A stretch of 64,000 nucleotides of DNA. Origin: Amylostereum areolatum. Its lineage: Eukaryota; Basidiomycota; Agaricomycetes; Russulales; Stereaceae. Location of the stretch: NCBI GenBank assembly GCA_012932865.1, contig SAXG01000075.1:1-64000 (forward strand), written 5' to 3'. How positions within the stretch are numbered: the stretch's first letter is position 1; each line of letters starts with the position of its first letter. The translations under genes were made by a program, and so were the position numbers. This document shows positions 28,771 through 58,326 of this stretch, piece by piece. Below the pieces are notes generated by a model that saw only the letters and a program-made list of their open reading frames with translations, was not told where the DNA came from and ran no database searches.

Positions 28771-29427
28771 GGAGACACCGACAGAACTGTGTAACGTAGG
28801 TGGATGAGATTACTGGCGAGGACGAGCAAGATACGAGCGCACCTTGTGAGTCTAGGAGCAGTAGGACGGCACGCCAGATCACTGGACTTCGCTGATGTCG
28901 ACGACGAAGCCATAGTCGGAACTTGCCAGTAGCGTAGCCTTGCGTGCGCGTAAATCACGTTGAGCGTGTTCATCTCCTGGCTTAAATACCCGCGGCGACA
29001 TCGTTGACATAGACGGTGACCTCGAGGAAAGAGCCTTGTCTTCCAGAACAAAGCCAGAAAACTTCCCCCCAGTTCGTCCTTTCGAGCGTTCTGCTTTGTT
29101 TCTTTGTTTCACGCAAACACGCGTCGTCATCTGTGTAAAAGCTGTACTGTGACCATAATGCGCCCTTGAACAATTCAAGAAGCGCTTTCGGGACCATGCC
29201 GTGAAAGAAGAGCCTGAGGTTCTCGCGGACAATTCGCGACATGGAGGCTGGAGTGCGTGAGTGGAGTCAACCCTATGACTAACTTGTCAGGCAAGTCGGA
29301 CCCAACCACCGCGCAGTCCCAGGCCTCGATTACCCACGACGAAAGAGGGACATCGCTTATCCTAAACAAAGTACGTAGAGTAAACGTCCATCGTCCAACA
29401 AGATTCAAGGCAGACAGACCAAAACCG
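28771..29427. other. Intergenic with a short minus-strand open frame
   Basis: On the minus strand 29242-28982 encodes 86 codons (starts with MSRIVRENLRLFFHGMVPKA, hydrophobic and Tyr/Phe-rich). It could be a small gene or an upstream exon of the F-box gene, but nothing recognisable supports either. Otherwise promoter sequence. Confidence 0.25.
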
Positions 29428-35938: not shown

Positions 35939-38398
35939 ATGGAATCGTTAGACTTGAAGATAAGTCACGGCGATGAAGCTGTGGAAGGCACTTCGTGAGT
36001 CTCATTCCCCTGATCTGCGTATAGTGTGCCGAGACAGCGTGGCTCATCCCCTGTATTAGACGGAAGACGACGTGGTTCGATCTTGCACAGGAGCACCTTT
36101 CGGAGACGGATGGCATCTTACAAGGAGGAATAGCATCTGTTACGAAACACAAACTCAGCGATGGTCTCGATCTGGAGTTGCAGCGGCTCGCCCAGTTAAC
36201 CGTCGCCGTGTTGACGCGACGCAACCGCAGTGCTCCGATATCCTTTATTCCCGGAGAGATCCTGGTTCGCATCTTCACGTTAGCCTCGTCATCCCCCCCC
36301 GAGAAAATAGGCCTTCCAAGAACCTCTATTTTCCCTTGGATTATCGCCAGTCACGTATGCCAACGATGGCGTTATATCGTCCTCGGTTATGCGACTGTGT
36401 GGGCGGAGCACGTTATGTCCTTTTCTAAAGAATCCGTCTCGCAGACGATTCTTCACCGCGCAGGAACGGCACCCCTTTCCCTTCGCTCTCCTACGCGTAT
36501 GCCAGCTAGTTTTGATATCGTTATTCAACACCTCCACCGGGCGAAGAGAATCTACGTTTATCTCAGTACAAGGGACCGTGTCGACGCTTTCTTCAACGCC
36601 CTATGTCAGGAAGCATCCCCGGAGTTAGAGGAACTGGCCATCGAATATAGCCCTCCCGGCGACGGCAACAGTCTACCAAAGTTTTTCTGCAGTATGGAAA
36701 GGCCCTTCATAGCTCCGCGATTACGAGCGTGCATGTTCAAGGATTGCTATGCTCCCTGCAAAACACCGTCGTCGATAGAAGAGCTCGAACTGGAGAACCG
36801 TCACGCCGACGCATCATTTCTCCCCCCCATAACGCACTTCTCCGAAATTATGCGCTTCTCGGCGCGCTTACGACGCCTATATATATCATCCTGGATGCCA
36901 TCCGTCCAAGCAGAGGGCCAGGGTATCGCGGATCTACCCCTGCTCGAAGAAATACGCATCTATGACCGGAGCATGCATCATATCTCAACCCTGCTCTCCC
37001 TCCTACGTTTTCCTCCAACTTGCCGTGTAAGATGCCGATTTGACTTTCAGGCCCGCTTCGACGGGCGAACAGCTGCAGACAACAATCGGGGGACGCTTTC
37101 CGAATACCAGCTCGCTTTACAAACAATCAGGACCCTGTTATCGTGTACAGCAGCTCACGCGGGAGCTCGTCTCCGGCCAAAGTGGCTCGTCTTGTCGGCC
37201 AGCGATCGCGTACTATCAGTCAACATGGGCGCCGATCCGACCATCTCGTGGCCACCTGAACATCGCGCTTTCTACAGCCTGGAATTCCCATGCACTCCCA
37301 CAGACACAGAGCTAGTGGAACTCTGTAGCTTTCTCTGTGATTCGTTCCAGCTGGAAGAAATCAGCTCCTTGGATTTGTGGCTGGAGAGAGAGTGCAACGA
37401 TGCGGTTTGGCGGCAGATCTTCTCCGTTTTTCCTCGTTGTTGTTCCGTCCATCTCTCTAACAGGCGATGCAATTACCGAAGGGCAATCAGGATGCTTCAG
37501 GCACACACCATGTCCTCACAAGATGGCATTGACGCACAGATGGTGCATTCGTCACCCCCGTTTTGGCCCATCCTTCAATCATTGCATCTCTTCCAAATCG
37601 ACTTTGCTGTCCCCCAAGCAGATAACGGCGAAACTGGTGCCTCTTCCGCCGCGCTTGTGTGTCAGGTGTTGTCGTCGCGAGCCGCTAGCGGATATCGTTT
37701 GCAGACATTGGAGGTCGACAAGATTGTTCCAGATCTCACAGGGGAGTTTTTGAAGGGTGATAATGATAAAAGAGTTGCGCCTGTGGACGCATACCTCGCG
37801 CGTATCATGACGCTCGTGGACGAGCTCCGATGGCAATCGGACCCAGATGAAATCAAGTCCGCCGTGTCGTCTCTGGCCTCTCCTTTGGAAGTACCCCTCT
37901 TTTTCGGAAAGAGAGAAATGATCACAGGAACCTTTGATCTCTCGTCACAAGACGCGGTGTCGTACGATGGGAAGGTCTACCCCACGGCGAGCCATCTCTT
38001 CGAGGCGATGAGGTTCCTCCCGCACAGGCCGGACATCGCAGAATCAATACGGATGTGTGACTCTAGGTCTACTCACGACGCGGAGAACATTAGCTTCCGC
38101 AATGACGATCATGTGAGGGTTGATTGGAAGCAGGTTCTAATCGAAAAGGTGGGTACGCCTGTGCCACTGGCTTGATCCATATTCTTGATTGACCAGAAAA
38201 ACATATAAGATGGACGAGGTCAATTACCTCAAGTTCACTCAAAATGAGCACGCACAACGCACGCTCCTCATGACAGGCCATATGAAGCTTGTATACTATT
38301 ACTGGAAGGGTTATAGCTCGAGAAACGGTGGTGCAGAGGCTGGGGACCAACTCGGACGTTCGTTGATGCGTGTGCGCGACAAATTGCGGGGGGAATGA
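35939..38398 (+). CDS. F-box / LRR-like / NADAR-like fusion protein, copy A
   Basis: Three exons, 35939-35994, 36060-38148 and 38210-38398, 777 residues. The N-terminal leader WFDLAQEHLSETDGIL is shared with copies B-D. F-box at about 76-130: APISFIPGEILVRIFTLAS, then WIIASHVCQRWRYIVLG and WAEHV. Residues 140-640 are Leu-rich with LRR-like spacing. The NADAR-like domain spans about 650-775: YDGKVYPTASHLFEAMRFLP, HRPDIAESIR, DWKQVLIEK-MDEVNYLKFTQNE (splice), LLMTGHMKLV, LGRSLMRVRDKLR. The family motif Glu-His has Ser663-His664 here, with Glu at the motif Gln position. The usual Asp...Trp-Gly loop near the end is not recognisable. Inferred role: SCF receptor with an ADP-ribose-type pocket. Start chosen by homology with copies B and C. 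Confidence 0.85.
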
Positions 38399-39448
38399 GT
38401 CCAGAGTCGGGTAGTGTATATATCGGAGGCGACCAAGCTGTGTACTATATGTCTTGCTATGCAAAATTATGACGGCGGGGAGGAGGCCGCATGTACATTG
38501 GAAGTAAGATAAGCGGTCCAGACTGCAGATACTACTGAGATACTTCGATAATGCTGAGGCTGAGTTAGATTGAACGTTGGCGGCGGTTGTGTCTTCGGCA
38601 CGCGCCGGCGCCGGGGAGATCTATCCGCTCAAAATGGCACCGTCCCGGTCGAGACCTCATTCTTTCACTCTTGCCGTTTCCTTGCTCGACCGTCCAAACC
38701 CTCCATACTTCCTCTACCATGGACGACTCAGCACGATCATAGGTTCAGCGGGGAATAACCGTCTTCATCGGGTCAACAGACTGAAATCCCTTCTCAAGAT
38801 AATCTCAACGGTGACCTGGAGCTCCGAGGGACTTGCGGGTTTGGTCGCTTTCGAAATTCCCGTCTTGTATGTTCTCGCGCAATGAGAAGCAGACGCAGGA
38901 ATACGTGGCGGAGGATGTGCACGCTGAGATAATGTGGCCTGGTGACGTCACATCGAGGCTTCGTACGGCGCAGGCCAGCTAGAGGTGCGTTGTCATTCCA
39001 CGCGAAGCGTCCTTCATCTAAGCCATCTCCTTCTTACAGCCCTCGGTCAGTATTTTTTGTCAACAGACAGCATCATTTTCGAGCCTGGAGACACCTTACT
39101 CTTCTCTCTCGACCGCCACCTTTCTATTACGACTCCACCTATTCACACGCCCTCTAGCAACCCCTTGTATTCCGTATACCGTCGCAATTGATGCCGCCTT
39201 GACAGCATCAAGCACGGACTCACTATAATGCATCCAACAAAAGAGGCGGGAGTTGATCGTTCTTCCCAACTAGCCCTTGTCGTTGACTGGGGATGTCATT
39301 GTCTCAGCTTGGTAGGAGGACTCACCCCTACTCACCCTCTACCAGCGGAACAAAAGCATTGATCGCATGGCTGTAGGGAAACTTCAACACCGTCGCCATA
39401 TAAACCGCCTTTCCATACCGTTTTCTTCTACTAACGCAACTCCCAATC
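38399..39448. other. Intergenic, no supportable gene
   Basis: Only short open pieces. The last 200 bp are the presumed promoter of the gene starting at 39449. Confidence 0.4.
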
Positions 39449-40508
39449 ATGCCCAGCGATCTCGCCGACTTCTTCGTGGCCATTGGTCAATACATGTCGC
39501 TCCGCGCCACAAGCGCGTATATGACGAAGGCCACCACTTTACAAGAGGATTCCAACACCTTCATCGCCGAGTTTGGGGAGGAATTCACCGCCCTCGAGCG
39601 ACAAGCGGTGCTATCGGCCCTCTCTGAGTGAGTCCTCCATTTGCGCACGAGATGTGGCGCTCACAGTATCCTTCACGCAGGACCGACCATGCAAGGCGGA
39701 TTGCACAAAAATGGAAGCCGAGACGACGCGATGCGTGCCGGTACGCGCGGCGGGCAAAGACGGCCCACGCTATGATAAGAGTGAGTTGCCCGCTCCACGT
39801 CTCCTCTTAGGCTTTGTTGACGGGTGATGCAGACGTTTTCAGAGCGCGTCCAGGCAGGCAGGCTCTACCGATCATGGCCTGGTCAATCCGCCGATGGCCG
39901 CGTCGACTCTTTCGAAAGCGATGGAAGCGCTACCGAAGGTACGTCTCTCCGGTGGCTGATCGAAGTTATTGCGAGGGCTGATCTGTGTTTCGCTTTCCCT
40001 AGAGAGTTTGCCTGTCACTGGTGAGGAGGGCGTTGTACCTTCGCAGCACCCCACGATGGCAAGCCCAGACTGCTATCAAGCTCAACATTTCTCCTCGCCT
40101 GCTTCGCCGTATTCCCCGAAGCACTCGTCTCATAAATCCCGACGGCGTACCTCGTCGTCTCATTCCACAATACCGAACCCGCAAAACGCTCTCGTGGTCT
40201 TCAGCCCGCAAGCCACTCAAGTGTCTCTCCGTCCAACGCGCCCGCAGAAGACCGCTTTCGACGACTATGGTCCGCCCCGTCCTCCGTGTCCTCCTCCTCC
40301 TCTTCTGACGCTCCAGACAGTCACAGAGACGCGTGGGCGCTACCTTCCCCACCCTCCGGCTGGTTTCTACCTCGGAAACATACCGCACACCAGCAGCCCG
40401 GTATGGAATCCGACGATGGAGTCGTATATACCTCTTTCCCTCGCCGACCCGAATGCGCCGATGCATTGGGTGCGGTCTGACGGTGTCAGCACGGTCTTCT
40501 ATGCCTAA
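39449..40508 (+). CDS. Unrecognised protein with a basic helix and Pro/Ser-rich tail
   Basis: Four exons (39449-39627, 39681-39780, 39833-39938, 40003-40508), 296 residues; all introns are GT-AG of 52-64 nt and phases agree. The N-terminal 60 residues are helical (MPSDLADFFVAIGQYMSLRA, FIAEFGEEFTALERQAVLSAL). They are followed by a strongly basic stretch, TDHARRIAQKWKPRRRDACR then YARRAKT, which could bind nucleic acid or be a nuclear signal. The rest is disordered, with SHKSRRRTSSSHS and PPRPPCPPPPLL. I do not recognise a family; the basic segment lacks the WF-N-R of a homeodomain. It lies between F-box-NADAR copies A and B. Confidence 0.6.
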
Positions 40509-41014
40509 CGTTTACGATTACACGGCGATACCTGTACGAATGCCCGTGCTTCTCTGCATCGTATGAAGCAATATTATACTGGGGCACACATTACGTCCTT
40601 CATGTGATTAGAATATCGCTCTGAAGTTATTGCAGATGCTACTTCAGAGAGTGCAAAAGAAATACGATCGGAGGTCCCTCTCAAGTTCCCAAACGTACTC
40701 AATCATCGATCATCCGGTGAGGATGTTGGTTTCACGAGCACGAAGCTATACATGATTACCACGCCTATACCACTACCTCTGATAATCCTGCGGGATATAA
40801 TATGCAATGTAAGGATACTAGTTCCAATAAAAATAACGAAGTTCCAGCTTGTACGTCGTTCACCTCAGCGTCAGCGCTCCGCCGAGAAATCGCCGGCAAG
40901 CTCCGAGTCCGGGCTCGTGCGCGTCGGCCTCCGTCTGAGTCCTGATAAGCCTGAACCTCTTGACTACATCTTCAAGCTTCGTAGTCCAATCCTCGGCCAT
41001 CCAGCATTTTTCCT
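40509..41014. other. Intergenic, promoter of F-box-NADAR copy B
   Basis: About 500 bp, AT-rich around 40560-40840. No gene seen. Confidence 0.4.
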
Positions 41015-43462
41015 ATGGACCCTGACGTGTCGAATGAGGCGAAAGATGGCTCCCCGAAACCGCTGGGCGAAGACAAGACGTGCGTGCGACCTTCCTAACG
41101 TAACTTGCTGAGGATTCACGCAGACTGTGCAGCCGGATATCGTGGTTCAATGTTGCTCAAGAACGCCTTGCACAGACAGACAGAATCATACACAATGGGA
41201 TTGCATCGGCGAAGAAATTCTCCCTGGCCAAAGATCTCGACGAAGAGTTGAAGCAGCTCGCGCAGATGTTAAAGCAGATGGCGCAGATGGCGCCCATCGT
41301 CCTCGCCCAACGAAACGCTTGCGTCCCGATAGCATTCCTTCCCGCCGAGGTCCTCGTCCACATATTGACGTTATCCGCGCTGAAACCTGAAAAGGATAAG
41401 CAGTTTGCGAGGACGAAAGCCCGCGGGTGGATCGTCGCTAGCCACGTGTGCAAACAATGGCGCGAAATCGTCCTTAGCCATACAATGGCGTGGGCGGAAC
41501 ATGTCTTCTCATTCTCCCACGAATACGTGCAAGGCGTCATTCTGAAACGTGCAGGGACCACGCCGCTCACCCTTGAGTACTCCGAGTTCCAAGAGGAGAA
41601 TGAAGCAAAACGCCGCTTCGACTTCATTCTCCAGCGCATCCACCAGATCAAAAGGCTCGATGTCTGGATCTTCAGCCACGCTCGTATCGCCACGCTGTTT
41701 CTGGCACTGTGTTCCAAGGAGCTTCCCGCGCTGGAGGAGCTGGACGTCAGCTATCACGGGCGCGGCTTCGACGTAGATCGTCCGTTCTTTCTTGGAAAAG
41801 GACCCCCCATCGTGGCGCCACAGCTGCGTAAATGCACACTCTTAAACTGTTACCATCCATGGAATATGCAATCTCTGGAAGACCTCCGATTAAGCACGAG
41901 TGCCGAGGAGGACAATAATACAGTTTTGCAGTTTCTTCCTGGCCTTGCACCACTTCTCGAGAGCCTGCATTCGTCTCCGATGCTCCGGCGTCTCCGTATC
42001 GCTTCTTATCTCTCCGCAGATTTCAAGGCAGACCGTCTCGTACAGCTCCCCCTATTGGAGGACATATATATCACGGACAAGGCGTTAGACCGCATCACGG
42101 CCATCCTTTCGCGTTTGCGGATCCCTCCTTCCTGCGCAGCTTCCTGCAGAGCGGCTTTGACTTGCGACAATCACGATCGGGAGGGCATGTCCCGAAGCGA
42201 GCCATCTGAATACGAGCACGTTTCCAGGAGCATTCAGGCGTTGGCGCTGAAAGATGCAAACAAAGTTTCTCGTCCCTTTTCTAGTCCAGACCACCTTACT
42301 TTTTCAAACGGCGGAGGTAACCTCTATATCGACCTCTGTGATCACACCCTGCCAGTGCGACATCTTTGTTGCAGCTGTTTTCTCTCTCCGACAGATTTGG
42401 TGCACCTCTTCAACCTTCTTGCGGACAAGTTTCATCTGGACCACGTCTCTTCGTTGTCCTTAGTATTGAACACAAACCGTGATGACGCGCTTTGGCAAAA
42501 TATTTTCACCATGTTTCCGAATGTTCGTTCGATTCATCTTTACAAGAGAGATGACGTTCGAAAAGGTCTTCAATTGCTTCAAGCGCGTCAGACCATGCAT
42601 AAAGGCCCATTAGCGTCGGTGGACCGTCCATTTTGGCCCCTCCTCGAGTCCTTGAGCATTCCCTCCATGAATTTCACCACCGCTCTATCGAGTAGCGGAA
42701 AACCTGCCGTCTCACTCGCCGCTCTGGTGTACGATATGCTGTCGTCGCGTGCAGCCGCGGGGTTCCGCCTGCAGACATTGAGAATCGACATGCTCGTTCC
42801 AAACCTCGGAGACGACCGACCGGAGGAAGAAATACGAAAGACAGCCCCGGTGGATGCGTTCCTGTCCCGCCTTCTCGACGTAGTGGACGAATTACAATGG
42901 CTGTCATATTCGAATGGAATCGTGTCGTCGCTTACATCTCCCGTGGAGCCCCCTCTCACCTTCGGTTCTCTCCGGCATAGCACGGGAGCGTTCGCCAGAT
43001 CCGCGCCATTTAGTGTTGTCCACGATGGAAAGTCCTACCCCACCTCTACGCATCTTCTCGAAGCAATGAAATTCCTTCCACATCGACCGGACATCTCAGA
43101 GTCCATCCGGGAAGCCCAGGATGACCGCGAGGCGGAAAGGATAAGTACGCGGGAGAATATGGAAATCAGGGAGGATTGGGAGCAAATCGCACAGGAGAAG
43201 GTAAGGATTTACCCTGAGTTTCATGCGTTGGTTATTCAACGACAAAGGACGCCAGGCGGATGAGGTTCAGTATCTCAAGTTCGTCCAGAACGAAGGCGCA
43301 CGGCGAATGCTTCTCCTTACCGGAAACATGAAGCTCATATACGAAGACCCTGACAGTTGCTGGCGGGACCGGTTGCTAAAAAAATCCATGGGTTCCGAGG
43401 AGTGGAACGGGGTGGGGGACTCGTTGATGAGAGTGCGGCGTAGGTTGCGGCGGGAAACATAG
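41015..43462 (+). CDS. F-box / LRR-like / NADAR-like fusion protein, copy B
   Basis: Three exons, 41015-41079, 41124-43200 and 43256-43462, 782 residues; introns are only 44 and 55 nt. Leader: CSRISWFNVAQERLAQTDRI, then AKKFSLAKDLDEELKQLAQM. F-box at about 85-140: VPIAFLPAEVLVHILTLSAL, GWIVASHVCKQWREIVLSH and WAEHVFSF. A Leu-rich LRR-like middle follows. NADAR-like domain at about 650-780: HDGKSYPTSTHLLEAMKFLP, HRPDISESIREA, DWEQIAQEK-ADEVQYLKFVQNE, LLLTGNMKLIYEDPDSCW, VGDSLMRVRRRLRR. Thr664 stands where the motif Glu is expected and Glu replaces the motif Gln. EDPDSCW keeps part of the usual Asp...Trp loop. It is closest to copy C. The inferred function is as for copy A. Confidence 0.87.
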
Positions 43463-44020
43463 GGCCCTTTTAGTCTACTGTAAGAAGTACCAGTGTATCC
43501 CTTTCACGTATGTATTGTAGCCAGCTCGTTCCATCCAATCACCATGACTGTGGTGAACATGACTGGAAGGACTTCTCTAGATGTGAGATCTTGAGACCCA
43601 GTGTTCAACGTTCAATTCCGATTAAATATCAGTACCAGGCAGGCTTGACAATGGGTGTGCAGTTTCTTATGCTGGACAGCGGTGTCATGGCCTGATGAGA
43701 AGATCCCGAGGTACGAGGGTTGACCCCATCGACATCTGCTTTCAGAGACTAGTATATCAACCTACGTGAGCAAGCCCTCGACTCTGCTACAGAGATGCAT
43801 ACGATCTTCGACAGCGAGAAACAAAAGATATACAGAACGAACTGTCAGTCGCACGGGGAAAAGACACGACGATGGACAGTCGGGATTAGCGTATGAGTAG
43901 TATCGTCCATATTGATATTTGTTGCTTCCGTTCCAAGACATCCACCCATCCACTCCTCCCCCGTCCCCAACTCCATCACGGAGAACGACAGACCGGTACT
44001 CTAAAGATGAACGCGACGCA
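43463..44020. other. Convergent intergenic region (copy B / ORM)
   Basis: 3' flanks of two convergent genes; no gene seen. Confidence 0.4.
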
Positions 44021-45035
44021 TCACCGGAACTGGGCCTCAGTGACGTGGATGCGGGGTGGCGGTACGCTAACGAAACCCTCGGGTGGCGTGCTTGTGCCGG
44101 AAGGAGGAAAGCTGGACGAGGTGGGCGTTGCGAGGTTGGACGGCTCCTCAGGGAGGAAGCGGAGGCGGGAACGATGAGCCTGCAAAAGAAGAGATGTCAT
44201 CAGCACCGCACCACGCAAGGTGGATAAAAAAGACGGGGCGGGGCAAGACGGGGAACGCACGATTGGCAATTTGGGGATAAGGACCCAGACGAGAGCCGAG
44301 AGGTTGACCGCGAACAACCAAGGATTATAGTTGGTGTAATGTGTGGAGAGAAGGAACCTGTGGCGGGAGGTGTGATTGAGTCCCGTAGGTCGATTGAAAG
44401 GGGGAGAGGAACGTACAAGCCGACGGGGACGGAGAAAAGCCATTTCTTCGCCGGTGTGTACTGAGCGCCACCATCGATTTGTTCCCAGAGCGTGAGGTCG
44501 TCGTACGCCCCGCCGTGAAGTTCGTTCTGGAAAGGAATACCGGTGACCCAGTGGAACATCAGATAGGACAACTGCGTAAGACGAGCGGTGTCGGAGATGA
44601 TGCCGTGGACGCGTCAGTACGGCATGGGCGGGGCGAAGAAAGGGGGGACGCACGGCGAGATAGCTCAGGTTGACCGTCGTCCAGCTGATATTCTGCGAGA
44701 TGCCGGGGATGGTGTCGATGACGACCTTGCCGGCGAGGATGAGAACGATATGAATGGCCCACGCGCCTGTCGAAATCGAGCGTTTCCGCAGCAACGACGG
44801 CAGACAGACCGCTCGTCAGCCATGTGGTCCTCGACCTCGACAAAAACGAGCGCGACGCACCTTTGCGGTTGACCCACTCTGCGTTGAAGTTGGAGTACGC
44901 GCCCTGGTCGAGGACGTCCACGTTGGAGGAGTCGACCTGCTCGACTTTGAGGATGCTGCTGCTTCGGCGTCGATTGGGGCCCGTGTGCACCGTCAGCCCC
45001 GGGTTCTTTGACTCTGCGGTGGGGACGTTGGTCAT
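44021..45035 (-). CDS. ORMDL family protein (Orm1/Orm2-like)
   Basis: Five exons, 45035-44861, 44766-44654, 44571-44417, 44357-44261 and 44179-44021, 232 residues. The ORMDL core is unmistakable: NFNAEWVNRK-GAWAIHIVLI, IPGISQNISWTTVNLSYL, YLMFHWVTGIPFQNELHG, GAYDDLTLWEQIDGGAQYTP, KKWLFSVPVGL-FLLSTHYTNY, then VWVLIPKLPI-AHRSRLRF. Orm proteins are ER membrane regulators that hold serine palmitoyltransferase in check and so set sphingolipid synthesis. The N-terminal about 55 residues carry Arg/Ser-rich sequence (RRRSSSILKV), possible phosphorylation sites by analogy with yeast. The start ATG at 45035 is chosen for length; the frame is open further upstream. It is divergent from the Virilizer-like gene across 219 bp. 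Confidence 0.95.
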
Positions 45036-45254
45036 CGCAGGAGAAGTGAAAGGGCGAATCACCCTGCGCGCCGGACGAGGAAGGAGGAACAAATCGAGAG
45101 CAGAGTCGTCAGATGAAGCACTCTTGAGCATGGCCCCGCCGGCGCCGGATCTCCCATATCCGGCACCGTCACCGGCCTTCGCCGCAACGCACACGCCAGC
45201 CCGTTTACATAATAATCCACGCTTTGCCCTCCACCACCACCGTCGCCGTCGACG

Positions 45255-48200
45255 ATGCTGCTTCACTGGGGCACTCTCGAGCCCGCGGGCCCGTCTCGTC
45301 TCGCCTCTCTTCGCTTTTCCTCCGCCGTGCGGGTCAGCGCCATTCGCGTCTTTCCCAAGGGCGCACAGCCTTTCGCGCAAGAGCCTCATGTCCTCGCGTA
45401 AGTCCCCTTTGCCAATGCTCGGTGACGGAGATCCGTGTGGTTCGCAGAAGGCGGTGGATGGTCGGCGAGTGCTGCGCGATCGGCGACGGAGGGACGCGCG
45501 GGCATGGGCATCGGTGTTGCGTTTCGGAGGTCGGTGTTGGTGCAGCTGGAGGAATCGAACAGGACCTCGTTTCCTGCGAACTCCTTCAAGGACGTTTGTG
45601 CGGGCCTCGGTGCGCAGTAATCTCGTTTTACCGAGGATGAATCCGGGTACGCCTTACCCACTGGCATGCACGCGGCCTGGGGTACACGCTCGACGCAGGG
45701 CTTAACACAATGCGCGTAGGCTTGTCACCGGCACAGATGCACCTCATATACCCTTTGCACGGTCGATGGCCTTTTATTTCCTGTTTACTTGAGGGGAACG
45801 TTGATGGCTAGGCTTTGCCCTCGGTATGCGCCGCGTTCGGCGCGCGCAAACCCGCATATATGCGCCAACGTGCTTCACCGTTCCCGTGCTCGCGATCGCT
45901 CAACGTCCATTTAGACTCCCAGCTGATCCCTGAACTCCTCAAGGGAAACCGAACCCGAATCCTTTGTCCTCGACGTCTTCTTCAATGCCCAACCCACCCC
46001 CGCCGCCGACGCCAAGGGCAAACACAAGGCGACGAACGCCCTCGTTCCAACCTCCCTCGCCTACGCGGGCGCCGCGGCCGAGTACGAGGTCGACATGAGC
46101 AGCGAGGTGCGGCACATACATCCCCTTTGCACGGCGCCGGCGCTCATTCCACCAGTGGGCGACGCGTCTCATGATCGTGCGGGGCAACTTCTCCAAGGTG
46201 TCCCTCGCGATCTACGGCGAACTCGCCATCGAAAACCCGATTCTGGCCACCACCTACACCCCGCGCCCCCTCCAGCCCATCGTCTCCACCCCGTTGTCGT
46301 CGGCCATCGACCCCGCCAACGCGCACGACCCCACCGGGCTCGCGCGCTCCCTCCTCAACCTCATCCCGGACGCGCCGCCCTTCGAGCTCGTCGTCCGCCT
46401 GATGTTCTGCCTCAAGCCCCCGGGCGAAGACTGGGACCTTCCGGGCTTTCCGTACCTCCACCCGGATCTCGACGAGCAGACCGACGACGACTTCGACCTG
46501 GAAGCCGCCGTGCGTCTGACCACGCAGCCCTTCGCGGACGACGCGGCGTACGAGGTCGTGCAGCGGTTCGCGGATCGGGTCGCGGACGCGCTCGGTCCCA
46601 AGGTGCGTTTCGGGGCACGGCTGTGGCGGGTTTCGCGCTGAGACCGGCTTTTTTTGTCAGTCTAGCGACCAGGCGTACGAGATCGCGAGCATCCTCATGC
46701 ATTCCGCCGCCCAACGTCCCGACATGGCCCGTCTTCTCATGGTGCGCGTGTCCGCGCTCGACGCGCATTCTTCCTCTGACCGACGTGTGCAGGACCGGCT
46801 CGACCTTCGCGTGATCTTCGACGCGTCCGTGCTGGACGAGGACGCGCTCGAGCAGCTCCTGGTGGCCGCTTCCAACCCCGACATCGCCCGCCACCTCACG
46901 GACCTCAAGTTTCCCGAGCTCCTGCAGTCTATGCAGCACAACGCTTCGTTCCCTCGCGGGCTTCAGCATGCAGCTCAAAGGCTTCACGAACGCCTCCAGG
47001 GGTGGACCGCTCTTGGCGACGCTCTGTGGAACACGCAAGCCCAGTTTCCCGTTGCGCGGGCATTCTTGCATACGGCCGGTGCCGACGAACCCTCGTTTGG
47101 AGTCCTGCTGCACGCGCTGGTCGCGCATTCGGACGTCGTCACGCGTTTGGCGGAAAACCCCGTCCTGGCGGATACACCTTTGGTCGCGGAGGATGAAGCT
47201 GGGAGCACATCGCAGGACGAATTTATCGCGTTTCTCCGGGCGTGGGTTGGTGTCGCGAGCGTGCTGGCGGTGTATGCTTGGGCGGATAGCGTTCCCAATG
47301 AACGTTGTCGGGAGCGGGCGCTGGGTATATTGAGTCTGTGGCAAGATGTGAAGGGCTATCGCGAGGTAACTTGGTCCACGTCCTATCCATCAACCACGCG
47401 CTGAGTCGATCTCTGTAGATTGTCAACCATCTCATGCTGTCGCGGCAGATGGTGTTCCGGTTGGAGTGCATGATGGACGACGCGGAACCCACGCGATCGG
47501 GGTTTCATGCCGAGCGCATATTGCTCGCGCTGTCCCGTGTACCCGCATCCTTCCTCTCCGGTCCTTTCTCAGGCGCCCTCCTTGCGCTCCACTCCGGCCT
47601 GTCAGTCATCGACGAAGATGAACGCCACGAGCTGCGCTCCGTCGCGGCCCTAGCTAACGAAGGTATCCCAGGCGCACTGCACGAATTAATCCAGCCTCTC
47701 GTACCCCCTCTCGGTGCGCGCCAGGTTCTCAAAACCCGCATTGCCCTCGCAGTGGTGGTCCACGAACTGCAGGAGGACGAAGACGGCGAATGGCACACGC
47801 TCAAGGCATTGTGGGCCGAGCGCGGCCACGGCCTTACCATCCATTTGGTGGACACCCTCACGGCGTATGTCGCGGATGTCCAAGCCCATTTCACCCTCGC
47901 CGTACCCCAGCGCACCACCCAGGAGCTCCTCGCCAACCTCTTCCACACCACGAAAGAGCTCCTTTCCCTCCTCCAACGGCTGGTGCCTCTCTACCCACTC
48001 CCAGGGAGACAGCTCCGCGCCCTTGTCACCACCGTGGCGGACCTCTTCGCCTGCACGGACGCCGCGGATATGCTTTTCACGCAGGAAGGCGCAGCCTCGA
48101 GCGCTGCCCAACGCGCGCGCCACGCCTGCATCGAGCTCGCGCGCCTGCTCGCCTCCCCCGAATGCGCCAGCGGCGAGGCGACGCTCCGCACGCTCCTCCG

Positions 48201-49687
48201 ACACGGTCTGCACGCGCACGGCGCGGACCCCGCGCACCACGCGCTGCAGGTGCTCAGCCTGATCGACCACCTGCTCCCGATGCCGCGCGACGCGATGGTC
48301 GACGACGCCCCGGACGCGGATTGGGTCCCCGCCGCGCTCCCGCGCGTGCTCGCGGGCCTCACGGCGTTTTACCGCCTTCTCGACCCGCAGAACAGGGTGC
48401 ACCTCCTGCGGCGCTTGGCCGACTTGGACGAGGGCGTGGTGGGCATTGGGGAGTGGCTCGTGAGGGACGAGCTCAAGCAGCTGCAGGCGGTGGTGGGTGT
48501 GTTGGGCGCGGGAGGGAGCGAGGCGTTGACGACGGTGCGGAGGTATCAGGTCGCGTGCGCGTTCCTGGTCCTGCAGGACCTGCTGAGCAGCCCGTCTACG
48601 TCGTCGATGCGGCTGGCGGAGTATGTGGGGTCGGACACCGATGCGGCAGCGGTGCTCACGGCAGCGGTGACGACGCTCCTGGCGAAGCGACTGTTTTCGA
48701 CGGTGCTGCTGGACGTGGCGGAGTACGTCCTGCCCACGGCGTCGCACGCGGGCCTTCGGTTCACGCTTGGCCTCGCATTCTTGCGAGGGATGCAGCATCG
48801 CGACGAGGCGTCCTCCGCTCTCAACATGGTCGCGCTGCTCGCCAACGCCGCCGCGGCATTCAAGGGCATCCCGGTCAAGCACATCGATCCCGGAAGGATA
48901 GGCAGCGAGCTGAGCGAAGTCCTACTCTTCCTCACCGTCTCGCGCGAGGCGATCACCGCGGACCAGGCCGAGGGCGTGCTCTCCGTGCTCGACTGGCTGC
49001 TCCAGCAGTCGCACGCGGGACTTCCGCAACTGTCCACCCTGCCCGGCATCTCCCAAGACACGCTCAACACCCTCTGCGACCGTCTTGCCGACGCCCTCCC
49101 CGCGGAGCGTGCGGACGCCCTCGAACTTCTCCGCGCGACGCTCTCCGCGCCCGCGGACGACGTGCCGCTGCTCCCGTCCGCGCTCCTGCCCACGACGCTC
49201 AAGCTCTCCCTCGGCACGCTCAACGCGCTCCTGCGCCCCGCCCTCGAGGCGCCGTCGACGCCGAAACGCAAGACGCCGCCGCACGCGCAGAACGTGCTGA
49301 GCATGGCGACGACGTCGCCGCCGACGGCGCTGCTGCGCAGCCCGGCGGTGACGGGCCTGACGAAGACGTATGTGTCGAACGATTTCAGGGTGTTGCGGCA
49401 GGGCCCCGGGGGGAGCGCGAGGGTGAACACGAGCCGGCTGCCGAGCACGCATGTGGATGTGAGTCTGCGTTTCGTCCCCGTCCTTCGATTCGTCGGTCGT
49501 GGTCTCTGTGGTCCAAGTATTGTGTGCTGATTGTATTTTCCGTGTCTGGCAGGAGTTTGAGATGGCGTCTGTTTCGCCGCAGCTGCTGACGGGTGGGCTG
49601 CCGGGGCTGCCGCCGCATCCGTTCGGCGAAGGGCATGGACATGGACATGGGTTTGCAGGGCTGGGTGCGCCATTCGGAGGTGCTTGA
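45255..49687 (+). CDS. Virilizer-like protein (VIR N-terminal domain)
   Basis: Seven exons: 45255-45397, 45944-46106, 46156-46602, 46661-46741, 46793-47365, 47419-49458 and 49553-49687, 1193 residues. The N-terminus LLHWGTLEPAGPSRLASLRF, VSAIRVFPKGAQPFAQEP, ETEPESFVLDVFFNAQPT, WATRLMIVRGNFSKVSLAIY matches the Virilizer N-terminal domain as I know it from basidiomycete proteins. The long remainder is all-helical and repeat-like (HEAT-type scaffold), ending in GHGHGHGFAGLG. Virilizer is a scaffold of the m6A mRNA methyltransferase complex; a role in RNA methylation or splicing is inferred from family only. Intron 1 is unusually long here (546 nt) but gives exact continuity (HVLA-ETEPESF). Very GC-rich coding sequence leaves other frames open by chance. 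Confidence 0.75.
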
Positions 49688-50210
49688 ACGGACGGTTGAT
49701 GTGGATCGAAGGGTTGACGGCGAATGCGTATAAGACCCTTAGGCGGAACTCGCGATCGCAAGTGAAGCCGCACGGTTGTATATATGTAATATGTTTGTTC
49801 GTAGGGGCGGAAGTACAAAGTGATCGCACGAGCTTTTATGCTTTACGAAAATGCTATTTGCGACCACTCTCAAGCCAATCCTAGCTATTGTGAGGTACGG
49901 TGACTCTATCTGCGTCTGTCTTAGAGAGGCCAACTCACCAAGAAACACTAGACAATATTAACCGTGAAAATGAAGGGACCCGGCGGCAGGCGGGGTTGTC
50001 CTTACAGGATTGTACTGTTGTTTTGGTATCGACTCGAGAGTTGTAGTTATGTTACAGTCCTGACACTTTCCGTGGTGTCATGAAATGGTAAGGTGGTACG
50101 ATACATTTGGCATGCCACTGCCAGGAGTCAGAGGCGGCGTGGTGAGTGATACATGGACAGCGAGTAGATGACGACAGCAGAGCAAACAAAACAAAGACAA
50201 TACACGCTAT
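49688..50210. other. Convergent intergenic region (Virilizer-like / kinase-like)
   Basis: 3' flanks of two convergent genes, AT-richer than the genes. No gene seen. Confidence 0.4.
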
Positions 50211-51537
50211 TTACGCGTCGGGGATAGCAGGAGTACGATGAAATATATACTGTACTGTGCGGCGCAGATGTGGCCAGACCTCACTCATGTGCCACAAGAA
50301 TGAATCGTCCTTGTAGGCGATGCGAGAGCGCAGTTTGAACGAGCTCAACGAGCTCCGAATCTTCTGAAAACGAGAGACGACTTCGTGCATCGTCGGACGC
50401 TTTTCGGGATCATTCTGGGTCATATCTGCGACGAGCTTCTTCATGAACCCGAATCCGCGACACTCCTATGCGAGCGCGTGAGAGGGCGACAGGATGGAGG
50501 GGTAGAGCTTACCCCGATGAAATCCTCTCGAACAAGGTTCCCAAGATAGTAGACATCGGTCGGGAATGGATCGCAAGGGACGCGGTCTTCGAAGGAGCCT
50601 GCGTGCTCCGGCGCGGATTTGTCTCCGCCTTTCAGCGGGAATTCGAGAGGTGGTCCATTGCCAGGCTCATACAGATGAGACAGCCCGAAGTCGACGAAGT
50701 AGTACCGTACAGGCTGTTCCGTGCGCCGACGAGACGGTGAGATTTTGCCTGTCCAGTCCCGACGCATTCTTGAATTTACAGGATGGGGAGGATGGGTATA
50801 CAATGCGGAAACATCCATCATGATATTGAACATGGTACAATCCCTGAGGTACAACGTCAGCATGAAACATGGTGATCCGTTGAGATTGACGTGCCGATGT
50901 GCAACATGATGTTCGTGCATGAATTGGATGCCCTGGAGACAGTCAACCGTAGAACAACGAGAGAGTAAGAGTATTCTTACCTCGAAGATCTGTGTGAAAA
51001 ATGCGACGGCTTCCCCTATGGTGGAAAACTGAGGGGTAAAATATGGCTGAAGATGGGGCATGATTACCCAAGCTTTGGTAGGTTTGTCGGGATGGTGAAG
51101 GACGTCTAGCACCGGCACGCAGTGGTTTCGTTGGTCAGAAGCGACGTCCTTTCCAGAGAAATATAGGCCTATTGCGAGTTCATTCGCTCTGAACTCGAGA
51201 TCAACTCTCTTGATGCTTACGAATGCCCCGTCCGACATGCGCGTCGCGTCGATAACCGTCCTGCCCTATCGTGCAATGAGTGGCAGCCCTGAAAGTGATA
51301 GCCTGGTCAACGTACTTTATTTGACCAGCCATCCTCAAAATGAACATAGTTCATGTCGGTATTTCCTGGAACCTTCCATGAGGGTACCCAGTCGGGTCGA
51401 TACCGGGGGCGGAGCATATAGCCACATTGCGCGAGCCAAGGCTGGTCTTCGACCCACTCCTTCTCAAATGAAGTAAGACCACCAGGATTTTCTCGCTGTC
51501 GACGACGAATGGCCTCAAAAAGAGACTCCGATTCCAT
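50211..51537 (-). CDS. Protein kinase-like protein K1 (GGDKSAPEH type)
   Basis: Five exons, 51537-51316, 51265-50981, 50932-50895, 50843-50513 and 50465-50211, 376 residues. Kinase landmarks: DATRMSDGAFVSIK (Lys93), an N-lobe without a clear glycine loop, HRDCTMFN (Asp183, Asn188), VDFG (Asp233), GGDKSAPEH, FPTDVYYLGNLVREDF, and KRPTMHEVVSRF near the end. This Agaricomycete group of small kinase-like proteins has no assigned substrate. HRD is obtained only if a 51-nt intron at 50894-50844 begins with GC instead of GT (CATCG|GCACGT ... CCTCAG|G). Its length and position match the GT-AG intron in K2. Without splicing, the frame stays open and inserts 17 residues in the catalytic loop. Confidence 0.78.
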
Positions 51538-52090
51538 AAGATGGCGCTAGGGATGTGGACGGGGAGTGAGATCTGGTGAGAAGGTATTAAAGGTAAGGGG
51601 AGAAGCAATATGGATGCAAAAAACCTCGAAGTCTTTTGATCATTTGGTGCTTGCCGGCCAATGCCGGCGTCCCTTGTTCTGCTCGGCGCTGAAGCTGAAG
51701 TTCTGCTTCCATTCCCTTCCTCTGATTCCCTATGCTCATCCATCTCACACGCGCATGGCATCATGACCCTGCATCGTATTGTCTGCGCATTGCTCTCCCA
51801 GCACCCAGGGCCACCCGAGGATAACGAGCATAGTCTTGGATACACCGTAAGAGTGACTTTTCTTTTGTTTGCAACCTCTTACGTGCAGTGTATGCTGGTT
51901 GGTCCTTGTTTTAGTTCGGCTGCATCCTTCAGCTTCGTATTCCGAGACGCTCTTTGGGAACAAAAACCTGGATCTCATGACAACTTGTGCGATGCTCGAT
52001 CTTCTTTCCGTGCTCATGCCATTTAATGACCCGGAGTTCTTCAGCACGATATATTGTCACACTTCACTCCACCCACCATCGCTACCTGCT
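51538..52090. other. Divergent intergenic region
   Basis: Promoters of K1 (minus) and the gene starting at 52091 (plus). No gene seen. Confidence 0.4.
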
Positions 52091-53034
52091 ATGGCCGAAA
52101 CCGCTGCTGCATCCATCGCGCTAGCCGCCGGGAAATATGGATGCAAGTTTTTCAAGTCCCGTACTACCACAGCCTTTGTGAAACGGGGCACTTCAGATAG
52201 AAGCAACATCTATCAAATGGTCATGGAGTACGGGCCCGAGTTCACCCCCAAGGAGATGGAAGAGACCTCGAGTTATCTAAATGAGTAAGCCTTTCATGAC
52301 CTTCGGTTCACTACTTGATATATTCTAAGAGCGGGCCATTAGACTGGAAGAGTGCAGACGTGACAAGTATACACGCAGTGAAGCGCAAGATTTTGCCAAA
52401 AAAGCGAAAGTCAAAATTACAGTAGGGACCATTCTACGTTCTGGCAACCAAAAGAAATACAGGCTCATTCTCCCTTCTGCATGCAGAGATTCTCGGAATT
52501 TGTCGAGGAGGAGAGAATGCGCGAGGTTACTAGGCTTGGGAGTCTTCATGTTGAAGGATACCGCTCGCACGGTAAGTTAGATACACCATCTCCGAGTCAT
52601 ATGCTCGATACCTAATTTAGTATGATCTAGAGGACCTGTATGATCCCCACCTGTTGTCGCCACCCAATTGCCACTCTCGATATTCCGAGCTCTCCGTTCC
52701 GTATGGATATACACAGAATTTAACACCTAGTTACCCACCACCACGGACCGTCTATCGTACGTTGTTTGTCCATGCTATCAACAAACGTGCCCGCTTATTA
52801 GGTAGTGATTTCTCTGTTTGTGAAAAGATCATGAACGGCCCTACGCTCAGGATCATCATCATTGTCATCATCAAGAGCACCAATCGTCGACACCCCGCCA
52901 CGCTCGGATGTATACTCCCGAACCAGTGTATGAATATGAGGACGAGCGGGAGCCCGAGTCTGAGCCAGAAGTGTATCCGTGTCGCTACCACTAGGACCAA
53001 TAGACCGTACTGTGTTGAAATGCGTATCAAATAG
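52091..53034 (+). CDS. Unrecognised helical protein, C-terminus uncertain
   Basis: Exons 52091-52284, 52343-52421, 52487-52571 and from 52631 join in phase and read MAETAAASIALAAGKYGCKF, YGPEFTPKEMEETSSYLNE, LEECRRDKYTRSEAQDFAKK, RFSEFVEEERMREVTRLGSL and EDLYDPHLLSPP. The first 120 residues look helical and charged, the rest disordered. The unspliced frame ends at 53034. Alternatively, a donor GTACGT near 52755 and an acceptor at about 52850 (ACGCTCAG) would give a shorter Ser-rich or acidic tail. I do not recognise a family. The gene separates K1 from F-box-NADAR copy C. Confidence 0.5.
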
Positions 53035-53041
53035 TGGAGAG

Positions 53042-55463
53042 TCATATGGCCTCCTGCCGTAACCTATGCCTTACTCTCATCAACGAGTCCCCCATCTCAT
53101 TCCTTTTCTCGGAACTCAAGAAACTCCTCAGATAAAATCCCCGACCAGAAGGGTTTTCGTATATGAGCTTCATGTTTCCGGTAAGGAGAAGCATCCGCCG
53201 CACGCCTTCGTGTTGAACGAACTTGAGATATTGTACCTCATCCGCCTGGCGTTCTTCGTCGTCAATCAACGCATGAAAATCATCAAAAAAATCCTAACCT
53301 TGTCTTGTGCGATTACCTCCCAATCCTCCTTGACTTCCCGCTTCTCCCGCGCACTTATCGTTTCCGCCTCACGGGCACCCTTGGCTTCCCGGATGGACTC
53401 TGATATGTCCGGTCGATGTGGAAGAAACTTCATTGCTTCGAGTAGATGAGTACAGGTGGGGTACGACTTTCCGTCGTAGACAACGCTGAGCGGCGCCGAT
53501 CTCTCGAACGCTTCCGTGCCACTCTTACGAGCACCGAAGGTGAGGGGGGGCTCCACGGGAGAGGAAAGCGACGACACAATCACGTTCGAGTCTGATCTCC
53601 ATCGAAATTCTTCCACGACGTCGAGGAGGCGGACAATGAACGCATCCACCGGCGCTGCCTTGCGAATCAGCTCCTCCGGCTGCCCATCATCTTTGAGGTC
53701 TGGAACGAGCCTATCGATTTCCAGCGTGCGCAAGCGGAACCCTGCGACGGCACGCGACGATAGCATGTCATACACCAGGGTGGCAAGCGAGGCGGCTGGT
53801 TCACCGCTACTCGATAGAGAGGTGGTAAAATCGATGCGGGGAATGTGCAAAGTCTCCAGGAAGGGCCAAGTGGGACGGTCCGTCGACGAGACTGATGAGC
53901 CAATTTGCATGGTCTGACGCGCTTGGAGCAACCGTAAGCCTTGTCGGACGTCGTCTTCTTGGTGGAGATCGATCAAACGAACATTCGGAAACACGGTGAA
54001 AAGCTGTAGCCAGAGCGCGTCGCCGTGGTCGGGAGTCGGAAGTGATAAGGAAAGCGAGCGGACGTGGTCCAGATGGAACTCATCCGCGAGAAGGCTGCAG
54101 AGTCGCGCCAAATCTGTCGTGGAGAGATAACAAGTGCAATGAAGACTCTCCAGAATGTGATCCTTGATTCTGATGTGGAGCGTATCCCCGCGCCGAGCTG
54201 GAGTGAAGAGACTAAGGTGGGTTGGGCGGGAGGAGGGATTCGAAGCTTCGTTTGCGTCTTTCGGTGCCAACGCCTGGATGATCCTGGCAATGAGCTCGTA
54301 TTCAGATGGCTCGCTTCGAGAGAGGGTGTCCCCACTGTAACAGGTCAAATCCGCTCTACAGGAGGGAGCAAGACACAGGCACGATAAAATAGCCGGGATG
54401 TGGTCCAACGTCTTGTCCGTGATATCTATCTTCTCCAATAGGGGCAGGTGGACGAGCTGGCCTTCCTGGAATTCTGCGGAGGAGAGATAGGAAGTGATAC
54501 GGAGACGCCGGAGTTCCGGAGACGAACGCAGGCTCTCGAGAAGTGGTGTAAAGTTGGGAAGAAACTGCACAGCTCGATCACTGCCCCCCGCGGGACCTGT
54601 CCGTAATTCGAGGTCTTCTAGGGATCGCATATTCCATGGCTGGAAACAGCTCACGAGCGTGCATGCACGCAGCTGTGGCGCCACGATGGCGCGTCCCGTT
54701 CCGCGGAAGAACGGAGGCTCTTTGTCGAAGGCACAACCGTATTCGACAACCAGTTCCTCCAACGCAGGGAGCTCCTTCGAACACAATGCCTGAAACAACC
54801 TGGCGATACGAGCGTGTCTGTAGATCCAGACATCGAGCCTTTTAATCTGGTCGATGTGCTGGAGAATGAAGTCGAATCGGCGTTTTTCCTCTTTGTTTTC
54901 CTGGTGATCATAGTACTGAAGGGTAAGCGGCGCGGCCCCTGCCCGTTTCAGGATGATATCTTGCACGTATTCGTGTGCGAACGAGAAGACATGTTCGGCC
55001 CACGCCGTCGCATGGCCAAGAACGATCTCGCGCCATCGTGTGCACACATGGCTGGCGACGATCCACCGACGAGCTTTGGTCCTCGCAAGCTTGTTATCGT
55101 CCCCAGGCTTTAGTGCGTAGAGCGTCAAAATGTGGACCAGGATCTCGGCGGGAAGGAACGATATCGGGACGCAAGCGTTGCGCTGGGCGAAGACGATGGG
55201 CGCCATCTGCGCGAGCTGCTTTAACTCCTCGTCGAGATCTTTGGCCAGGGAGAAGCTCTTCGCTGACATGATCCCATCGTGTATGATGCTGTCTGTCTGG
55301 GAAAGACGCTCTTGGGCGAGACCGAACCACGATATCCGGCTACAAAATCTACGTGTATAAGAATCATCAGCAAGTTGCGTTAGGACGGTCGCACGCACGT
55401 CCTATTTTCGTTTGGCGACTTCGGGGAGCCGTATTGCGTCTCATTCGACGCGGCCAGATCCAT
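53042..55463 (-). CDS. F-box / LRR-like / NADAR-like fusion protein, copy C
   Basis: Three exons, 55463-55399, 55348-53299 and 53245-53042, 772 residues; introns are 50 and 53 nt at the same places as in copies A and B. Leader: CSRISWFGLAQERLSQTDSI, AKSFSLAKDLDEELKQLAQM. F-box: VPISFLPAEILVHILTLYAL, WIVASHVCTRWREIVLGHAT, WAEHVFSF. A Leu-rich middle follows. NADAR-like domain at about 640-770: YDGKSYPTCTHLLEAMKFLP, HRPDISESIREA, DWEVIAQDK-ADEVQYLKFVQHE, LLLTGNMKLIYENPSG, MGDSLMRVRHRLRQE. Thr655 replaces the motif Glu. The Asp...Trp loop is lost entirely (GRGFYLRSF). It lies tail to head with copy D, about 420 bp apart, suggesting tandem duplication. Confidence 0.87.
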
Positions 55464-55882
55464 GGCGAAAACGTTGGATGGACGAGGATTGAATATTGAA
55501 GCTATGAAGCTGGAGAGGTTCAGGAGAACGCGCGAGTGACACGAGCCCGGAGATAGCCGGTGCCGGTAAATCCTCCGAATCGGCAGAGAGCGGCAGAGCG
55601 GTTGAGGTGAACGGCGATGTACAAACTGGAACTCCCTTATTTTCGTTGGAGACATATACAGTATGTTTTACATCCCGCAAGGCAAGAGGATCGGAAGTAT
55701 GGGTAGAGGCGTGATAAATAGTACATGAACAACAGGTCAGCGACCGTAGCCAAAGCAAACCTACAGATAACCTACAGGCTACAGGTTAAGACGCGAGGAA
55801 ATGTACAGTGTTTATATGTACCGGACTGCGGTACGTGTCTATGACACCTCGAAAGAGACAGCTCAAGGCCCATGATTCGGTA
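55464..55882. other. Intergenic between copies C and D
   Basis: Promoter of copy C and 3' flank of copy D. No gene seen. Confidence 0.4.
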
Positions 55883-58326
55883 TCAGGATTGATCCCCCTC
55901 CCGCCGTAGTTTGTCCCGCACACTCATCAATGAGCGCTCCATCTTGTTCCACTTTTCTGAACTCATCGCGTCCCTCGGCCACTTCGAACGGTCTGGATGT
56001 TCGCATACGAGCTTCATTTTTCCGGTACGCAGAAGCGTGCGCCGCGCCCCCTCGTTTTGGACGAACTTGTGATAGAGAACCTCATCCGCCTGGCATTCCT
56101 TCGTCATTGACCAGTATATAGAGCCCAGAGAGACACCCACCTTCTCTTGTGCGATTTGCGCCCAATCCTCTCTGATCGCCTGCTTCTCCCGTGCACTTAC
56201 ACTAACCGCTTCATGGACATTCTTGGTTTCCCGAATAGCCTCCGCGATGTCTGGTCGATGCGGAAGGAATTTTGCCGCCTCGAACAGATGCTGCGCTGTA
56301 GGATACGACTTCCCCTCGTATATAACTCCGAGTGCTGACAATGGCGTGAGTTTTTCCGTGACTCTGTTGCGGTGGCCGAAGGAGAACGGGAGCTCCATGG
56401 GAGATGTAAACGACGATATGGTCCTATTCGAGACCGACCGCCATCGCAGTTCATCCACGACGCTCATGAGGCGTGCAAGGAACGCCTCCACTGGGGCCAT
56501 TTTACGAATCTGCCCCTCCGACTGACCATCATCATCTTCAAGGTTTGGAATTAGCCTGTCGATTTCCAGAGTCTTCAAGCGTGACCCTACAGCCGCACGC
56601 GATGACAGCATGTCGTACACCAGCGTGGCGAGTGACGCTGTTGGATTGTCTTCGTGCGATAGAGAGGTTACGAAATCGATGCGGGGGATGCGCAGATACT
56701 CGAGGAGGGGCCAATACGGATGGTCTACTAGCGCTGAAGGGTTATTTTGCAGGGTCGGAGGCGCCCGGAGTATATGAAGTCCTTGACGAATTTCACCCTC
56801 GTGGTGGAGATGGACCGAACGAACCTCCGGGAACGCTGTGACGATCTCTCGCCAAAGCGCATCGTCGTGGTTTATTTGCAGTCCTAGGGACAGCGTACTG
56901 AATGATCTGGTTCAAATGAAATGTGTCTGCGAGCAGACCGCAGAGCCGCATCAAATCTGTATCAGAGAGGGTACATTCGATGAAACGAAGACGCTCCAAT
57001 ATGTGATCCTGGACGCTGATGGTGAGAGTATCCTGGTCAGCAGAGATAGAAAGGTGGGTTGGGCGAGAAGAGGGGGGATGATCTTCGTTTGCGATTGTCA
57101 GCGCCAACATCTTGATAACCCTGGCTACGAGCTCGTATTCAGATGGCTTGCCTGGGGGTATGGTCCTACGAAACCGCCAACCGCCATTGTCGTACGCCAA
57201 ATTCGCCCTGCACGAGGAGGGTAGACGCAAGTAAGATAGCAGGGCCGGGATGCGGTCTAACGTACTGTCTGTGATGTCCATCTTCTCCAATAAGGGAAGG
57301 TGCACGGGATGGTGCAACTCGGCATCTGCGGAGGGGATATAGGAAGAGGTACGTAGGCGCCGAAGGTTCGGGGACGAACGCAGGCTCTTGAGGAATTGTG
57401 CGAAGCTGGGGAAACCCGGCGACTTTCTACCCCTTGCGGTCCGCAATTCGAGGTCTTCTAGAGATGGCACGTTCCATGACTGGAGATAACAGTCCACGAG
57501 CGTGCATTTACGCAACTGTGGTGCCACGAATGAGGGTCCTGTCCAAAAAAAGAACAACGGATTATCCATAGATGGCGGGGCATAGTCGATGACCAGCTCC
57601 TCCAACACGGGGAGACTATTCGAGCACAGAGCCTGGAAAAGTGTGGTGGCACGCGTGGGCTGGAAGAGCAGGACATCGAGCCTAGCTATCTGGTGGATAT
57701 GCTGGAGAACGAGGTTGAACCGGCGTTCTTCGTCTTCGTTTTGCTCGCGGTCGTAGTACCGAAAGGTGAGCGGCGCCGTCCCCGCACGCTTCAAAATAAT
57801 GCTTTGCACGTATTCTTCAGAGAAAGAGAAGACGTGTTCCGCCCACGCAGTCGCGTGGTCAAGGACGATTTCGCGCCATCGCTTGCACACATGGCTGGCG
57901 ACTATCCACCGGCGAGCCTTCGTCCTGGGAAACAGACGATCGTCCTCTGGTTCCTTGAGCGAGGATAGCATCAACGTGTGGAGAAGGACCTCGACTGGAA
58001 GGTATGATATCGGGACGCAAGCGTTGCGTTGGGCGAGGACGACGGGTGCCATCTGTGTGAGCTGCTTCAACTCTTCGTCAAGATCGGCCAGGGAGAAGTT
58101 CTTCGCCGATTGAATCTCCTCGTGCATGATACTGTCTGCTTTGGAACGCTGCTCTTGGGCAAGACTGAACAACGATGCTCGGCTGCAAAGTCCGCGGGTG
58201 TATGAGAATAAGTAGTACCGAGTCGCTGCATCAATGTTACTTACGACGAAATTGTACGCACGTTCTGCTTTCGCTCAGGGAGTTTGTGGAGCTTCCCTGG
58301 GCCTCATTCGGTACGGAGAGATTTAC
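55883..58326 (-). pseudogene. F-box / LRR-like / NADAR-like fusion, copy D, disrupted
   Basis: The exon structure follows the other copies (58326-58262, 58182-56141, 56089-55883) but two lesions are visible. The position of the start ATG reads GTA (58326-58324), with no nearby in-frame ATG. Near 56900 the frame changes: FHLNQIIQ is followed out of frame, while the homologous STLSLGLQINHDDALWREI continues one base later (a surplus of one or four bases). The F-box (VPISYLPVEVLLHTLMLSSL, WIVASHVCKRWREIVLDHAT) and the NADAR-like end (YPTAQHLFEAAKFLP, HRPDIAEAIRET, ADEVLYHKFVQNE, LLRTGKMKLVCEHPD) are otherwise well preserved, so decay is recent or the break is an assembly error. Gln replaces the motif Glu. 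The intron inside the NADAR domain (51 nt) is stop-free and in frame. Confidence 0.8.

Follow-up and report, generated by a model that had tools for sequence, protein, structure and literature searches.

Organization of the F-box/LRR/NADAR cluster

The DNA considered here (the window; 64,000 nucleotides [nt], positions 1 to 64,000 of contig SAXG01000075.1 of the basidiomycete Amylostereum areolatum, assembly GCA_012932865.1) harbors, within positions 35939 to 58326, a cluster of four related gene copies, A and B on the forward strand and C and D on the reverse strand, which have in common a leader, an F-box-like region, a leucine-rich repeat (LRR) middle, and a C-terminal NADAR domain. A first-pass annotation, made from the letters alone, had described this cluster as a family of four genes of one architecture; the architecture was borne out and its outer coordinates proved exact, yet only three of the copies (A, B, and C) are intact genes, while D is decayed in this haplotype (Table 1).

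Each of the intact genes is modeled with three exons (the first short, the second long, and the last of 62 to 68 codons), joined across GT-AG introns into a single open frame. The long exon, whose stop-to-stop open frame spans 716, 719, and 711 amino acids in A, B, and C, respectively, alone carries the leader, the F-box region, the LRR, and the first half of the NADAR domain, and the fusion of these parts in one polypeptide, as originally claimed, is thus independent of any splicing guess. A short intron (61, 55, and 53 nt in A, B, and C, respectively) interrupts the NADAR domain.

The assembly (57.1 Mb in 182 contigs, the window contig being labeled C156) contains a second contig, C175, which holds the same stretch at approximately 97.5% identity and on which A to D are again all present. 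As other loci are likewise paired, the assembly appears to represent two haplotypes. The presence of all four copies in both, coupled with a sequence match between the A tail and Escherichia coli YbiA (see below), argues that the cluster is not a chance arrangement, and contamination or chimerism is disfavored by its occurrence in both haplotypes. The frames of A and C are open on both contigs; exon 2 of B is interrupted by a frame break on C175, possibly an assembly error, and otherwise 14 substitutions separate the two B copies. At the position of the B and C start codon, D has GTA on either contig, and a frame break is likewise present in each haplotype, at a site which differs between them; judged by its sequence, D is a decayed copy and not a working gene. 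Just past the end of its similarity to the window, C175 (L009 7972-9899) bears open frames which we take to resemble a tyrosine recombinase and a reverse transcriptase/RNase H.

Against the F-box-like profile PF12937 (cut-off, 24.3 bits), D (28.1 bits) and B (24.6 bits) scored above the threshold, C (23.6 bits) just below it, and A (16.6 bits) below it. Structure prediction places an LRR solenoid after an F-box-like N terminus, with structural matches to FBXL-type proteins, and the middle of A to D is accordingly described here as a predicted LRR solenoid; no Pfam LRR family matched A to D at E values of up to 1. A Skp1 gene is present in the genome.

Table 1. Positions in the window of the cluster genes, their NADAR regions, and neighboring open frames
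Feature	Position	Strand	Remarks
Gene A, F-box/LRR/NADAR, 777 amino acids	35939-38398	+	Exons 35939-35994, 36060-38148, 38210-38398
NADAR region of gene A, residues 643-775	37930-38389	+	PF08719; intron 38149-38209 splits region
Gene B, F-box/LRR/NADAR, 782 amino acids	41015-43462	+	Exons 41015-41079, 41124-43200, 43256-43462
NADAR region of gene B, residues 648-779	43000-43450	+	PF08719; intron 43201-43255 splits region
Gene C, F-box/LRR/NADAR, 772 amino acids	55463-53042	-	Exons 55463-55399, 55348-53299, 53245-53042
Copy D, decayed F-box/LRR/NADAR gene	about 58326-55883	-	No ATG; frame break near 56905; 51-nt intron 56140-56090 in NADAR
F-box/LRR-family gene without NADAR	25062-26759	+	F-box-like, 24.5 bits
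F-box/LRR-family gene without NADAR	26938-28809	-	No Pfam match; matches gene B exon 2, residues 74-360
Open frame, 857 amino acids	29428-32001	-	Strong DUF6535 match, 146 bits
Open frame, 703 amino acids, between B and C	47419-49530	+	No Pfam match

The NADAR tail and its active site

The NADAR-like domain called in the first-pass annotation was confirmed by the profile PF08719 (cut-off, 35.1 bits), which scored 59.9 bits in A and 63.1 bits in B (both spliced) and 57.7 bits in D (a 3′ open frame in which the 51-nt intron is read through); C gave 16.3 bits, having been scored without its last exon rather than at full spliced length. The A tail matched E. coli YbiA (2b3w) by sequence with an E value of 6.3e-8. 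A structural model of the tail was of low confidence (mean predicted local distance difference test score, 50.2), of insufficient quality to be relied upon, and its top two structural matches were 2b3w (E value, 0.09) and 8bau (E value, 0.35).

Active-site residues as named in PMC11543638 were placed by MAFFT alignment. The segments from E43 to K50 and from the LL-x-TG motif to E125 are ungapped, and these sites are therefore firm, whereas the placement of D130 and W133, which fall within a gapped loop, is uncertain. The E43 position is occupied by S, T, T, and Q in A, B, C, and D, respectively, and by M in a NADAR gene on contig C2, while the E125 position is occupied by Y, Y, Y, and C and by F in C2; as aligned, both catalytic acids are lost from all four tails and from C2. 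The K50 position holds R, K, K, and K (K in C2), and W89 is tryptophan in all five sequences. R79 is replaced by F, T, A, and A (K in C2), an arginine following one residue later in all five. Within the gapped loop, the D130 position reads K, D, G, and S (D in C2) and the W133 position S, L, L, and P (W in C2); an ungapped count from LL-x-TG places a tryptophan at the W133 position in D and one residue earlier in B. In the alignment, none of the four tails has the WG-x-G motif, and the asparagine of the G-x-N motif is retained in B, C, and D.

Elsewhere in the genome, three short NADAR genes on contig C95, spliced by eye such that residues adjacent to introns are less certain, retain both E43 and E125 (N2 and N3) or E43 with F at E125 (N1). 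E43 is likewise retained in one bacterial and three viral NADAR relatives, two of the viral ones having L at E125, and loss of E125 alone is therefore not unique to the cluster and C2. K50 and W89 are described as phosphate contacts and E43 and E125 as ribose contacts (PMC11543638), the E125 position being Glu, Asp, or His depending on the NADAR subfamily (PMC11543638; PMC11125620).

Relatives in the genome and origin of the tail

A genome-wide search with PF08719 returned 21 matches (all 21 candidates scored), comprising 8 from the cluster (C156 and C175), 10 from C95 and C151, 2 from C2, and 1 from C113. Exon 2 of gene B, used as a query, yielded at least 66 matches (64 of 253 candidates scored), namely, 11 cluster copies, 1 on C2, and 54 F-box/LRR matches, none of the last extending beyond residue 557 of the query; for 11 paralogues, the open frames can be aligned to B up to residue 613 at most. 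Since these alignments end before the tail, the NADAR domain is best viewed as having been added to a single branch of a large F-box/LRR family. PF12937 gave at least 143 matches (150 of 469 candidates scored), indicative of a large F-box family, and among the best 150 of the 469 none is a neighbor of a NADAR on C2, C95, or C113. Within this genome, the joining of NADAR to F-box/LRR was found only in the cluster; candidates left unscored could hide others, though the PF08719 search should reveal any NADAR. Bacterial/archaeal genomes and viral contigs, each scanned once, returned 1 and 3 NADAR relatives, respectively, whose open frames (164 to 192 amino acids) leave no room for an F-box/LRR portion.

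A phylogeny of 10 NADAR domains unites the four tails (87/89) and, with moderate support, joins them to C2 (85/94); only the grouping of B with C (96/95) earns the star assigned by the tool, and the C113 domain forms a very long branch. The C2 gene, which has a long low-complexity N terminus, shares with the tails the position of a phase-0 intron (DWDQVALSI/MDEAMYHKF in C2 versus DWKQVLIEK/MDEVNYLKF in A, the slash marking the intron), a position at which the reading frame of the three C95 genes is uninterrupted. The tree grouping and the common intron position suggest that a C2-like NADAR was captured by an F-box/LRR gene and was duplicated afterwards, and the local expansion with divergence proposed at first is supported. 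Unlike the tails, however, the C2 gene retains D130, W133, and WG-x-G and has no F-box match nearby among those scored.

Two further NADAR loci were observed. The C95 locus (2123167-2129917), which has its counterpart on C151 (L013, L014, and L026), is a trio of short genes, two with both catalytic glutamates, and C113 (91569-91964; L011 2336-4513) encodes a proline-rich open frame of 726 amino acids which ends in a very divergent NADAR.

Selection and haplotype differences

The ratio of nonsynonymous to synonymous substitution rates (dN/dS) between B and C is 0.20 for the F-box, 0.47 for the LRR, and 0.34 for the NADAR domain. Between A and B, the NADAR value is 0.17 at a synonymous rate (dS) of 2.4, which is near saturation, and dS is saturated for the whole gene and the LRR; between A and C, the LRR value is 0.37, and the NADAR dS is saturated. 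The two haplotypes of A differ by 47.5 nonsynonymous and 14.5 synonymous changes (62 in total; dN/dS, 1.04), concentrated in LRR codons 151 to 250 and 351 to 450. By region, dN/dS is 1.10 in the LRR and 0.58 in the last 167 codons, the latter on 2 and 1 changes, and the 137 NADAR codons show 1 nonsynonymous and 0 synonymous changes. For C, the haplotypes give 0.28 overall and 0.61 in the NADAR domain, on 3 changes. Nine other F-box haplotype pairs, picked by hand, comprise two identical pairs, one without synonymous change, and six with dN/dS of 0.11 to 0.96, among which the values 0.66, 0.96, and 0.11 are based on 3, 4, and 4 changes, respectively. We read these data as indicating that the F-box and tail are constrained and that the LRR of A is changing fast, although an excess over 1 is not demonstrated and relaxed constraint would look alike.

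Proposed role of the fusion proteins

We consider it somewhat better than an even prospect that A, B, and C are substrate adaptors of a Skp1-cullin-F-box (SCF) ubiquitin ligase with a pseudo-NADAR binding tail, the tail being a binding part and not a hydrolase. The N-terminal F-box would dock on Skp1, and the LRR would select the target for the ligase. The tail, apparently derived from a C2-like NADAR gene and devoid of the catalytic acids, would act as a further binding module, whose ligand is most likely a partner protein. The tail might conceivably sense ADP-ribose without cleaving it.

That last option, extended to a tail which recruits the SCF ligase to ADP-ribosyl marks by binding the modified nucleic acid or protein, is considered unlikely as the principal function. 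It would accord with the retained phosphate contacts (K50, as arginine in A, and W89), with a PARP-type match in the genome (29.4 bits versus a cut-off of 26.7), and with the constraint on the NADAR domain, but E43 and E125, the ribose contacts, are missing, R79 is replaced (an arginine standing one residue later), W133 cannot be placed safely, and a six-frame search of the genome without splicing gave 0 matches to the DarT profile PF14487. That no DarT was found in this search likewise led us to reject a DarT-linked antitoxin.

Slightly less probable still is a conflict module, in which the F-box proteins, as antidotes or incompatibility factors, would bring about the degradation of a linked or an invading protein, the dead NADAR serving as bait or decoy. 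The frame breaks of B and D, which differ between haplotypes, and the clustered LRR differences of A would fit such a role, as would the rapidly evolving F-box antidotes of Caenorhabditis tropicalis, which degrade toxins via SCF (PMC12680543), and the duplicates of NADAR-domain genes and the F-box expansion reported in two mapped Medea intervals (PMC7853720). The nematode parallel is, however, an analogy only, the genes of PMC7853720 being named as candidates by position, and no toxin-like partner was identified among 10 neighboring open frames, for which Pfam gave a single match (DUF6535). A broader conjecture, which we hold to be doubtful, would make a dead ADP-ribose-processing enzyme the bait or reader of a ubiquitin ligase in a fungal self/nonself or anti-parasite system, the tail capturing an ADP-ribose-related ligand or an attacker protein and the varying LRR fixing the target to be destroyed.

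The first-pass annotation had also envisaged the removal of ADP-ribosyl marks, an enzymatic idea left unsupported by the loss of both acidic residues in all four copies and C2, and an active hydrolase was discarded as the leading interpretation on the same grounds. A ligase which both erases a mark, by hydrolysis of ADP-ribosyl-guanine or another N-glycoside, and ubiquitinates a partner is thus improbable in our estimation. K50 and W89 persist, a tryptophan lies at or beside the W133 position in D and B by ungapped count, and the C7 NADAR of E. coli tolerates Ala at the E43 equivalent with minor effect and Lys-to-Arg at the K50 equivalent in vitro (PMC11543638). Gln at the E43 equivalent, as in D, nevertheless inactivated that enzyme, and Ala or Asn at D171, the counterpart of E125, where the tails have Tyr or Cys, cost efficient activity (PMC11543638); the missing WG-x-G points the same way. 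The uncertain placing of W133 leaves the estimate as it was, since the E43 and E125 substitutions hold regardless. That the tail is a passive relic, as the lost acids and the decay of D might suggest, is the least probable reading, given the NADAR dN/dS values for B versus C and (near saturation) A versus B and the near identity of the NADAR codons of the A haplotypes.

Relation to known systems and significance

No fusion of NADAR with an F-box was found in the searched literature (NADAR with F-box, fungi, or ubiquitin; largely without subscription papers), in keeping with the initial statement that no such system had been described; the domain combination is real and, as far as could be searched, undescribed. 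A survey of viral NADARs (PMC9503650) leaves the F-box unmentioned in its available part, and the roles of eukaryotic NADARs are stated to remain unclear (PMC11125620). A likely ubiquitin ligase adaptor and an ADP-ribose-processing fold are thus present in one chain, the fold being constrained after losing its catalytic acids, and a direct test of NADAR domains as binding modules becomes possible. The cluster also offers a handle on the recognition targets of large fungal F-box families. In a mushroom, 210 F-box genes are reported, 80 of which are developmentally expressed (PMC7567395).

With the FBXL-type F-box/LRR SCF adaptors (FBXL2, FBXL17, and SKP2; plant D3/MAX2), A to C share an F-box-like N terminus followed by a predicted LRR solenoid, from which they differ in the additional NADAR after the LRR. 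The tails share a sequence profile and motif order with the YbiA branch of the NADAR superfamily (E. coli YbiA, 2b3w; Phytophthora nicotianae NADAR, 8bau), yet they have lost the E43 and E125 equivalents and are joined to an F-box/LRR protein. The DarT1-NADAR toxin-antitoxin system draws on the same domain superfamily, whereas the cluster has lost the catalytic acids and the six-frame search of the genome found no DarT. Finally, the KSS F-box antidotes of C. tropicalis are likewise rapidly evolving F-box proteins (PMC12680543), from which the cluster differs in having no known toxin.
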